Below, piece by piece: positions 877 through 18,609 of a stretch of 64,000 bases of DNA. The notes beneath the pieces are model-generated. The model was given only the letters and a program-made list of their open reading frames with translations. It searched no databases and was not told where the DNA came from. How positions within the stretch are numbered: the first letter of the stretch is position 1; every line of letters begins with the position of its first letter. The stretch is from contig REDW01000104.1 in assembly GCA_007693325.1 (NCBI GenBank), positions 23,530 through 87,529 of the forward strand. The letters are read 5' to 3'. The stretch comes from Spirochaetaceae bacterium. Lineage in GTDB: Bacteria; Spirochaetota; Spirochaetia; DSM-27196; PWMO01. A program made the translations under genes and the position numbers.

Positions 877-2053
877 CCCCGCGCTGCCGGCCGCCGGCGC
901 CGCTGCGGCGGCCCGCGCTGTTGCACAGCCGTCTGCGGATCTCGCCGGCGAGTGGCAGCCGGTTGCGCAGCAGGTGTGGCGCGCGGTGTACCGCTCTCCG
1001 CTGCTCGGCAGCGACGCGCTGTACCGCAGCGCAGCGCACGGTGGGCTGCTGCTGGGCCCGGAGATCGATCCGCACGGCCTGTGTTTCTTTGACAGCGAGA
1101 CCACCGGTCTGTCCGGCGGCGCCGGAACCACTGTGTTTCTGCTGGCGTGCGCGCGGCTGCACGGTGCCGAGCTGGAGACAACGCTGCTGTTTCTGTCCGA
1201 CTTCTCCGGCGAGGCGTCTTTCCTGCATCTGGTACGCGATCAGCTGATGAGCGCGCAGACGCTGGTTTCGTACAACGGACGCGCCTTCGACAGCAATATC
1301 CTGCGCAATCGATTCCTGCTCAACCGCATCGACCCGCCGCACAGACCGCATATCGACCTGCTGCACCCGGCGCGGCGGTTGTTCGGCAGCCTGCTCGAGC
1401 GCTGCAGCCTGGCGGTGGTTGAACGGGATGTGCTGGGGGTAACACGCGATATCGACATCGACGGCGCGCTGATTCCAGACGTCTGGCTGCGTTTTCTCAG
1501 GAGCGGCCGAACCGGCGAGCTGCAGTCTGTTTTTGCGCACGTACGCCAGGACGTTGTGTCGCTGGTGGCGCTGCTGGCAAAAATAGAAGAACTGGTGGCG
1601 TCGCCGGACCGCGGAGGTATTGACCCGCTGCAGCGCGCGCGGCTGCTGGTGGAGTCACCGTATCGCCGCGCGGGCAGTGTGAGGCTGCGCCGCAGCGGCC
1701 TGCAGAGTTTGAGCGTCCTGGCTCGAGATCCAAGCGACCCGCGCAGCGCGATTGCGGCGCGCTACTACTGTGCGCTGCTGAAGCGCTGCGGCAACTGGGA
1801 TGTTGCTGTCCCCATCTGGCGCGATCATTTCGAGCGGCGGCGCAGCGTATGGGCCGCCATCGAACTGGCCAAGTTCTACGAGCATCGCTGCCGCGATTAT
1901 GCCGCGGCAGCCGAAACGGTAGCCCACGCCGCCGGCTGGGACCACGCGAGCGCCATGCAGCCGGAACTCACGCGCCGTCTGGAGCGCCTCGACGGCAAAC
2001 AGCGGCGTGCCAGCGGCAGCTCGGCGGTGCGCGGTCACTCCGACAGCGCCTGA
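833..2053 (+). CDS. YprB/MrfB-like RNase H-fold 3'-5' exonuclease
   Basis: DSETTGLSGGAGTTVFLLACAR exonuclease motif and SYNGRAFDSNILRNR; ATG at 833 (MRNLYQRLKQQRE) overlaps the helicase end. Confidence 0.82.
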   Translation: MRNLYQRLKQQREASPALPAAGAAAAARAVAQPSADLAGEWQPVAQQVWRAVYRSPLLGSDALYRSAAHGGLLLGPEIDPHGLCFFDSETTGLSGGAGTTVFLLACARLHGAELETTLLFLSDFSGEASFLHLVRDQLMSAQTLVSYNGRAFDSNILRNRFLLNRIDPPHRPHIDLLHPARRLFGSLLERCSLAVVERDVLGVTRDIDIDGALIPDVWLRFLRSGRTGELQSVFAHVRQDVVSLVALLAKIEELVASPDRGGIDPLQRARLLVESPYRRAGSVRLRRSGLQSLSVLARDPSDPRSAIAARYYCALLKRCGNWDVAVPIWRDHFERRRSVWAAIELAKFYEHRCRDYAAAAETVAHAAGWDHASAMQPELTRRLERLDGKQRRASGSSAVRGHSDSA

Positions 2054-9877: not shown

Positions 9878-10312
9878 ATGATAATTGAAACCAAAGCTTA
9901 CGGACCGGTCGAGGTTGCCGAGAAGCAGCTGGTGCGCTTCCCTGACGGCCTCTACGGCTTTGAACAGCACACCGAGTTCGGTCTGCTGGACGCGCACAGT
10001 CCGCCGTTCTACTGGCTGCAGAGCACGCACGACCGCGAGGTTGCGTTTATCCTGGTCAATCCGTACCTGTTCCGTCCGGACTACGTGCTGGATATTGCCG
10101 CAGATGACCTGGAGGAGATCGGCTCGCCGGGTGAAGACGATATTCTGGTGTTCGCGATTCTCACTATCCCCGCCGAGGGCGAGGCTACCGCAAATCTGCA
10201 GGGGCCGCTGGTAATCAACCGCAGCCGGCGCATCGGCAAGCAGTCGATCTCACTCGATGCCCGATGGAAGACCAAACACTCCATCGTCTCAGAAATGACG
10301 AGGTCCGACTGA
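9878..10312 (+). CDS. fliW: flagellar assembly factor FliW
   Basis: [21 protein letters not shown]...[13 protein letters not shown]; stop overlaps csrA start. Confidence 0.96.
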
Positions 10313-10581
10313 TGCTGATTCTGGCACGAAAACTGAACGAGAGCATCGTGATCGCCGGTGATATAGAAGTATCGGTGATCGATATCCGCGGTGACCAGGT
10401 GAAGCTCGGGATCAACGCGCCGAGGCACGTCAAAGTATACCGACGCGAGGTCTACGAAGCAATTCAGGAAGAGAATCGCCAGGCGGCCGGTGCGCGCGCT
10501 ATCCCGCCGGAGCTGGATGCGCTCTTTGGAGCCCCGCGCGACGACAGCAAATCGTCTAGCGGCGGCGGCGAGGAGTCGTGA
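10312..10581 (+). CDS. csrA: carbon storage regulator CsrA
   Basis: [55 protein letters not shown]. Confidence 0.97.
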
Positions 10582-16116: not shown

Positions 16117-16473
16117 CTATATCTGTTCGTCTACAAACAGCCCTATCGCCTCGCGGATGCGTGAATGTACCCGCTGCAGTTCAGCAGGCGGGATCTCCTT
16201 AATCACTCTATCGGTTGTTTTGTCGATGACTTTCACGACCACCTGATCAAGATCCCGATTTACCGTGAATTGCAGTCTCCGATCAAAGATCTGCGAGACA
16301 ACCTCGAGCTCTGCCACTACGGTAGTGAGTTCCGCTGGCTGGTTTGACGCGGCCGCTGCCTGATTAACCGACGTAGGGGCGCTGTTCACCGCCCGGGTCA
16401 ACGCCCGCCGCGGCATCACAAAGTCTTCGGCCTTGTGGACTTCCCCAAGAACCTTGTTGACCTCCATGGACAT
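16117..16473 (-). CDS. flaG: FlaG-family flagellar protein
   Basis: LQFTVNRDLDQVVVKVIDKTTDRVIKEIPPAE; between flaB and fliD; ATG at 16473. Confidence 0.87.
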   Translation of the reverse strand: MSMEVNKVLGEVHKAEDFVMPRRALTRAVNSAPTSVNQAAAASNQPAELTTVVAELEVVSQIFDRRLQFTVNRDLDQVVVKVIDKTTDRVIKEIPPAELQRVHSRIREAIGLFVDEQI

Positions 16474-16474
16474 A

Positions 16475-16494
16475 TTCTTACCTCCGTGTAAGAA
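16475..16494 (-). promoter_or_regulatory. GGA-loop hairpin presenting the flaG Shine-Dalgarno (putative CsrA site)
   Basis: Minus strand TTCTTAC-ACGGAG-GTAAGAA, perfect 7-bp stem, ATG follows immediately. Confidence 0.75.
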
Positions 16495-16497
16495 GAG

Positions 16498-16527
16498 GGT
16501 GACCGGGAGCGCGCTTCCCTGGTCACC
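16498..16527 (-). promoter_or_regulatory. Hairpin in the flaB-flaG intergenic region (attenuator/terminator or CsrA site)
   Basis: GGTGACC...GGTCACC arms followed by CTCTTCTT; contains AGGGA. Confidence 0.6.
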
Positions 16528-16588
16528 GCCCAAGAATTCAGTTTGCAGGAAAGATGACGTCCAGAAATCTCTCCCGCTGTCAACGTGG

Positions 16589-17452
16589 TTAGCCGAGCAA
16601 CTGCAGTACAGCCTGGGGCTGCACGTTGGCCTGCGCCAGCATTGCCGTGTTCGACTGAACCAGAATCTGGTTGCGCACAAAGTTCACGACCTCGGACGCC
16701 ATATCGACATCGCGGATCAGTGATTCTGCGGCCTGCAGGTTTTCCGAAGCGATTGCAACGCCTTCGCGCGCCAGTTCGAAACGGTTCTGATACGCTCCCA
16801 GGTCCGCCCGTTGGCGGGAAACCTGTGTCAGCGCAGAATCGACAATTCCGATTGCCTGGTTTGCCACATCCGGCGTGGAAATCGACAGAGTGCCTTCGGC
16901 ACCTTGTGCACCCATCAGCCCGAGCGCCTGAGCCGTCATGGTTCCGACATAAGCAACCTCCGACTGGTCCATGTTGGCCCCAATCTGGAAGGTGATGCCG
17001 GCTGCTCCGTTGGCCACTTCAGCGTCACGTGCGAACGCCCCGGTCAGCATGTTCATGTTATTGAACTGTGCGTGTGAGGCAATTCGGTTGACCTCGGCTA
17101 CGAGCTGGGAAACCTCGACCTGGATCTGCATGCGGTCTTCGGCGGTATAGATACCGTGCGCCGACTGTACCGCGAGTTCTCGTATGCGGTGCAGAATGTC
17201 CTGGGTTTCCTGCAGATACCCTTCAGTCGTCTGAATGAACGAGACGGCGTTCTGGATATTGCGCTCGGCCTGGTTGAGGCCGCGAATCTGACTGCGCATC
17301 TTCTCGGAAACTGCGAGGCCTGAGGCGTCGTCTCCTGCACGGTTGATTCTCATTCCCGACGAGAGTTTTTCGATGTTCGATTGAACCGCTCCGCCGCGAA
17401 AATTGAGCGTCCGTGAGGCAAACGCAGCACTCGTGTTGTGGTTAATAATCAT
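16589..17452 (-). CDS. flaB: flagellin (FlaB type)
   Basis: [18 protein letters not shown]...[36 protein letters not shown]-term [27 protein letters not shown]. Confidence 0.97.
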
Positions 17453-17475
17453 AGGCCCTCCTTGCGTGTTCTATT

Positions 17476-17499
17476 CCCGGGGCCTTCCGTGGCCCCCGG
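17476..17499 (-). promoter_or_regulatory. GGA-loop hairpin in the first flagellin leader (putative CsrA site)
   Basis: Minus strand CCGGGGGCC-ACGGAA-GGCCCCGGG; second ANGGA in the SD (AAGGAGGG). Confidence 0.7.
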
Positions 17500-17706
17500 T
17501 CCCGGTCAAGGGCGCAGTGCAGCGGCCGGTGAGCGCGCCACCCGCCACTGGTACACCATCAACAGAGAGGCTTTCCCGGCATGCGTCATGTCGGGCGGCC
17601 CCACTGCTGCTGACCAGTTTTGATCAGCAAGGAGGTTGAATGTCAAAGAACAGAGTGACGGTGAGGCAACCGCAGTAGCCACCCCACCATCATCAATAAT
17701 AGCGCG

Positions 17707-18564: not shown

Positions 18565-18590
18565 GTGGTTTTTCCTCCGTGAAAAATTCG

Positions 18591-18609
18591 CCTCGACTCC
18601 CTGTCGAGG
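18591..18609 (-). promoter_or_regulatory. GGA-loop hairpin in the second flagellin leader (putative CsrA site)
   Basis: Minus strand CCTCGAC-AGGGA-GTCGAGG perfect 7-bp stem; second ANGGA in the SD (ACGGAGGA). Confidence 0.72.

Follow-up and report, generated by a model that had tools for sequence, protein, structure and literature searches.

In the structures of RsmE-RNA complexes an A(N)GGAX loop is recognised on a stem closed by C-G and then by U-A or A-U (PMC4005645), and the consensus for CsrA is RUACARGGAUGU. The Pseudomonas hcnA stem-loop bound by RsmE (PMC4005645, PDB 2jpp family) places an ACGGAX hexaloop over the Shine-Dalgarno (SD) sequence; the hexaloop sits on one short stem that precedes the start codon and has a C-G closing pair. 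In Campylobacter jejuni, CsrA binds the flaG leader, as detected by coimmunoprecipitation (>346-fold) and gel shift, with weak affinity (Kd >350 nM); FlaG falls threefold without fliW, and deletion of csrA alone leaves FlaG unchanged (PMC4894983). For spirochaetes, the passages available from PMC8668096 report binding of CsrA to Leptospira flaB3 and likewise to Borrelia flaB, and those from PMC9481697 predict CsrA sites near the SD sequences of Treponema denticola flaB1 and flaB2. These passages do not name flaG as a CsrA target, and those on T. denticola draw no link between the flaB1 and flaB2 sites and Termite-flg (RF01729), an orphan RNA described in 2010 from the termite gut only (PMC2864571). 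In the literature searched, Termite-flg/RF01729 is named only in that first description, with neither flagellin nor CsrA in the text searched. CsrA on flaG and CsrA on spirochaete flagellins are each known separately.

The DNA analysed here, a stretch of 64 kb referred to as the window, comes from a bacterium that groups with Spirochaetaceae genomes from soda-lake metagenomes. Pfam confirms flaG, two flagellin genes, fliD, fliW and csrA in it (Table 1). The preliminary description of this DNA had placed csrA and fliW in the same window as flaG, and both are real by this measure, at ~6 kb from the flaG hairpin. The locus resembles that of C. jejuni in the gene concerned, in a GGA motif near the SD sequence and in the presence of fliW; in C. 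jejuni, however, the evidence is binding, whereas in the spirochaete flaG it is a perfect, covarying hairpin at which binding is predicted. As with the Borrelia, Leptospira and T. denticola genes in the passages cited, filament genes have CsrA-type sites at the SD sequence and csrA lies beside fliW, although the targets described there are flagellins.

The stop codon of fliW and the ATG of csrA share one base (TGATG, positions 10310-10314 of the window, plus strand), and this overlap suggests translational coupling. The CsrA of the window aligns without gaps to the Bacillus subtilis-type structure 1t3o and to 5dmb, which we take to be CsrA in complex with FliW. Its sequence contains L4, Q29, V42 and R44, of which L4 and R44 presumably act in the RNA-binding surface, and a CsrA with such a surface is thus encoded in the same genome. 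The FliW-CsrA-flagellin system is represented in the window by fliW, csrA and a flagellin gene with a CsrA-type leader site.

Table 1. Features of the flaG-flagellin locus and of the fliW-csrA pair (window coordinates)
Feature	Position	Strand	Basis and remarks
fliW, CsrA antagonist	9878..10312	+	Pfam FliW, 2.5e-36
csrA (MLILARK...)	10312..10581	+	Pfam CsrA, 1.4e-24; nearest solved structures 1t3o, 5dmb
flaG CDS, 118 aa, start ATG 16473	16117..16473	-	Pfam PF03646 FlaG, 1.6e-21
HP-C, flaG ribosome-site hairpin UUCUUAC-ACGGAG-GUAAGAA	16475..16494	-	proposed CsrA site; sequence, fold, covariation
HP-B, stem GGUGACC(A)GGGA / UCCCGGUCACC, loop AGCGCGC	16498..16527	-	fold and relatives
HP-A, stem GCGGGAGAGAU/AUCUUUCCUGC, invariant loop core CUGGACGUC, just 3' of flagellin-2 stop	16545..16577	-	fold and relatives
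flagellin-2 gene, 287 aa	16589..17452	-	Pfam flagellin N and C
flagellin-2 leader RNA, Termite-flg relative	17450..17569	-	R1, 57.1 bits (window sequence in R1 training set)
ANGGA hairpin GGGGCC-ACGGAA-GGCCCC, upstream CsrA-type site of flagellin-2 leader	17479..17496	-	scan
flagellin-1 gene, 285 aa	17707..18564	-	Pfam
ANGGA hairpin UUUUUC-ACGGAG-GAAAAA over flagellin-1 ribosome site, loop identical to that of flaG	18569..18586	-	scan and fold
second, upstream ANGGA hairpin CCUCGAC-AGGGA-GUCGAGG of flagellin-1 leader	18591..18609	-	scan and fold

The hairpin at the flaG start site

The minus-strand sequence of the flaG leader is ...CCUC-UUCUUAC-ACGGAG-GUAAGAA-U-AUG, with its C abutting the stem directly. 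A perfect 7-bp stem with an ACGGAG hexaloop had been claimed for this strand, and that is what TTCTTACACGGAGGTAAGAA forms when read from 16494 to 16475 (HP-C). The loop had further been equated with the ribosome-binding site, and the hairpin set directly before the ATG. The loop is ACGGAG as claimed, but the SD sequence GGAGGU begins in it and extends 2 bases into the 3' arm; likewise, the hairpin is adjacent to the start codon (16473-16471), but a single base, T 16474, lies between the two, and the span of 16471-16494 given for the hairpin takes in the ATG. No second copy of TTCTTACACGGAGGTAAGAA was found in the 64-kb window with up to 3 mismatches allowed. Alone, the HP-C 20-mer folds at -5.4 kcal/mol (z -3.4). 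The whole 151-nt leader has z -3.1, with 1 of 200 shuffles as good, and its minimum free energy fold retains HP-C together with two more hairpins; z-scores for 60- and 121-nt pieces are uninformative (about 0 and -1), the full intergenic piece being the only one of the three to do so clearly.

We read flaG leaders from about 50 genomes and 80 named loci, including that of the cultivable non-pathogen Alkalispirochaeta alkalica (L152); flaG is present in 49 of 61 relatives. HP-C is near-universal within the order. Several of the more distant relatives that have flaG lack it or have it in altered form (e.g. L027, L033, L035, L041 and L044), and the Treponema of termite guts have another ANGGA hairpin (ctgccAAGGATTggcgg) and ACATGGAGG upstream of flaG, HP-C being the order-level part. 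Loss of the stem in relatives had been set beforehand as an observation that would refute the CsrA reading. Instead, 34 distinct spirochaete leaders retain the stem, with 92.4% of cells paired; shuffles give 82.7% and slid controls 41-60%. Both-side changes number 20 against 8.0 in shuffles, and they affect 5 of the 7 pairs (for example, U-A to G-C in six and U-A to A-U in one).

The loop A, the GGA, the closing C-G and the next A-U are invariant in all 34 leaders, and the outer pairs vary. Set beside the elements recognised by RsmE and CsrA, the flaG hairpin is thus invariant at the known contact points and free elsewhere. The claim of a CsrA/RsmA architecture over the SD sequence gains by this comparison, the invariant positions being the known CsrA/RsmE contacts, and HP-C can be regarded as a candidate site. 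The consensus of the flaG leader is UACANGGAGGU, and HP-C combines ANGGA in a hexaloop, within the 5-8 nt of CsrA/RsmA target loops, C-G followed by A-U as closing pairs, overlap with the SD sequence (GGAGG before ATG 16473) and covariation. It shares with hcnA the loop type, the position and the closing pair, but differs in gene and phylum, in the base X (U in hcnA, G in flaG) and in that its binding is a prediction.

Selection for an SD sequence was considered as the sole source of ANGGA in flaG and rejected, since it leaves an invariant A with a free N unexplained. The free position is C in 26, T in 9, G in 7 and A in 4 leaders, and an A precedes it in 44 of 46. N is rarely A, although an SD sequence alone would favour A; conservation of the preceding A therefore suggests that whatever reads the motif passes over N. 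The flagellin SD sequence AAGGAGG makes ANGGA trivial and was left out of this evidence. It is also conceivable that the hairpin alone, with no protein, presents or slows the SD sequence, setting the initiation rate by structure or acting as a mild thermosensor. A moderate stem (-5.4 kcal/mol) over a start site would suit such a role and would likewise yield compensatory changes, yet the invariant A two bases before GG with its free N, the invariant C-G/A-U closing pairs amid varying outer pairs and the identical loop on flagellin leaders would all be left unexplained, and GGAG is exposed in the loop rather than sequestered in the stem. We consider control by structure alone improbable.

A second AUGGA is found at codons 3-4 of flaG (AUGUCCAUGGAGG, window 16460-16467, minus strand) and occurs in most clades, not in all. 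It is possibly a second contact for a CsrA dimer, or it may simply encode Met-Glu.

Flagellin leaders and Termite-flg

We searched both strands for perfect stems, 6 bp or longer, whose loop of 5-7 nt contains ANGGA. The window holds 4 such hairpins, where a Markov model predicts 0.75. Each of the 4 falls in the leader of a filament gene: one in that of flaG, two in that of flagellin-1 and one in that of flagellin-2. A further 278 kb of the same genome contain 4, none of them in a gene leader; the chance density was taken from these 278 kb and the window (342 kb in all, about one tenth of the genome). Among 235 larger genes in the same DNA, such a leader is found only on the two flagellins, flaG itself being under the size filter. 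The flaG hairpin and that over the flagellin-1 ribosome site have a common loop on different stems, a compensatory difference within one genome. An SD sequence easily satisfies ANGGA and short palindromes are common, so HP-C might have arisen as a chance palindrome round an ordinary ribosome-binding site. The probability of this is negligible, however, given that ~0.5 kb of flagellar leaders contain as many sites (4) as the 278 kb from other parts of the genome, and given the covariation over 34 leaders; density and conservation with compensatory change together rule out a chance origin. A hairpin in the L075 control that appeared to be a leader site was discarded, as it falls inside an ORF. 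Beyond this genome, an ANGGA hairpin is present in 129 of 157 distinct spirochaete flagellin leaders, compared with 8 (maximum 14) when shuffled.

The flagellin-2 leader is matched over the full length of RF01729 at 17472-17575 (minus strand) with 19.1 bits, which is under the cut-off of 40; the match ends 19 nt before the gene. By the full-length alignment and the scan, this leader holds a CGCG-loop hairpin followed by a 3' ANGGA hairpin, as does Termite-flg, where the 3' hairpin loop AaGGAUa is an ANGGA loop followed by the SD sequence. The flagellin leader position is also common to the two, although Termite-flg was described from the termite gut and is found here class-wide. It occurs in the same operon in L051, L052 and L055. 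Of 20 named loci, 14 likewise have it there at cut-off level, among them a T. denticola genome (47.2 bits). It lies 16-19 nt before the flagellin gene adjoining flaG (spacing checked in L051, L052, L055 and L100). As a leader of the flagellin adjoining flaG it was seen in the window, L051, L052, L055, L100 and L117-L155. The RF01729 matches in L053 and L054 were set aside, as no flagellin lies near them. L054, a Spirochaetia genome, also contains a Flavo-1 RNA (RF01705) at 1467-1555 (plus strand), which at 60.9 bits is well above its cut-off.

A leader model, R1, was made from 25 non-Treponema leaders; it spans the flagellin SD sequence and start codon, which raises its score. R1 recovers all 14 over-cut-off Termite-flg loci, as well as L051, L052 and L055, at overlapping positions. 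Since no Treponema sequence went into R1 and it still detects these 14, we take the flagellin-2 leader of the window and Termite-flg to be of common descent, with Termite-flg belonging to a wider family of flagellin leaders. Leaders of the R1 type are present in 120 of 248 genomes, as against 2 over the cut-off with RF01729, and an R1 scan of the window's own genome gave no other credible site. Termite-flg RNA, with its ANGGA hairpin, is probably a CsrA target. The flaG leader, on the other hand, was rejected as a member of Termite-flg, having no RF01729 match up to E 5.

The flaB-flaG intergenic RNA

The gap between flaB and flaG is occupied by a three-hairpin RNA (HP-A, HP-B and HP-C). The model R2 detects this RNA throughout the class, in 143 of 248 Spirochaetia genomes with about one copy each; an Rfam search of the gap gave no match. 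HP-A has a strongly covarying stem of ~10 bp, seen in the window and about 49 relatives across Spirochaetia. As a possible second site for dimer bridging it offers a GGA, in the form CUGGA and not ANGGA, and it is not of the CsrA type. The stem of HP-B also covaries, and its loop GCGC is invariant in 25 relatives; HP-B was noted in the window and in L051, L100, L117 and L147. A T-run as in a terminator follows HP-B on its 3' side in several Treponema loci, but not in the window. The preliminary description of the flaG leader was correct in HP-C and missed HP-A, HP-B, the sites on both flagellin leaders and the relation to Termite-flg.

These two hairpins bear on the possibility that the flaG leader serves an RNase or some RNA-binding factor other than CsrA, for instance in processing between the two genes that sets the flagellin:FlaG ratio, and that HP-C belongs to this device and is not a CsrA site. 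Conserved neighbours in the same intergenic RNA with invariant loops not of the CsrA type, and the terminator-like T-run in Treponema, would fit this. Every CsrA recognition base is nevertheless present in HP-C, and HP-A and HP-B can play a separate role alongside it; we regard another factor at HP-C as very unlikely.

Predicted control of FlaG and flagellin output

HP-C is, with high probability, a CsrA site over the flaG ribosome-binding site, at which CsrA would repress translation of FlaG and FliW would relieve the repression. The prediction is supported by sequence, structure and phylogeny. We infer that on the flaG leader the CsrA dimer would grip the ACGGAG loop and the closing C-G and A-U pairs, blocking the 30S subunit, so that FlaG would not be made. 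Export of flagellin would free FliW from flagellin, and FliW, by binding CsrA, would lift the block. Synthesis of FlaG would then accompany that of the flagellins, as the flagellin leaders of this gene cluster bear the same kind of site. By analogy, the weak binding of CsrA to flaG in C. jejuni and the unchanged FlaG on csrA deletion count against this reading, as does the loss or alteration of HP-C in some distant relatives with flaG. Of 248 Spirochaetia genomes, 188 have csrA. Among the 143 with the flaG leader 136 do, and most of the 7 exceptions are incomplete genomes; this co-occurrence is confounded by the presence or absence of flagella.

The covarying predicted CsrA site on spirochaete flaG is a new member, and the link to Termite-flg and the flaB-flaG RNA appear to be new within the literature searched. 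With moderate confidence, we favour a wider picture in which Termite-flg is, class-wide, the leader by which the flagellin operon of spirochaetes receives CsrA, and the flaB-flaG RNA (CUGGACGUC HP-A, GCGC HP-B and HP-C) is a second conserved RNA of that operon, as yet unlisted. Jointly they would form an operon-wide CsrA array coupling the output of flagellin and FlaG to export, and HP-A and HP-B would add a further level of control, for example partial termination or processing, by which the flagellin:FlaG ratio is set.

Spirochaete filament genes are controlled largely after transcription, and few CsrA sites have been tested so far. flaG has a covarying CsrA-type hairpin and the flagellins of its operon have hairpins of this type as well, from which we predict a control point for the whole operon across the class. 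Termite-flg gains a concrete and testable hypothesis, namely that it is a CsrA target.
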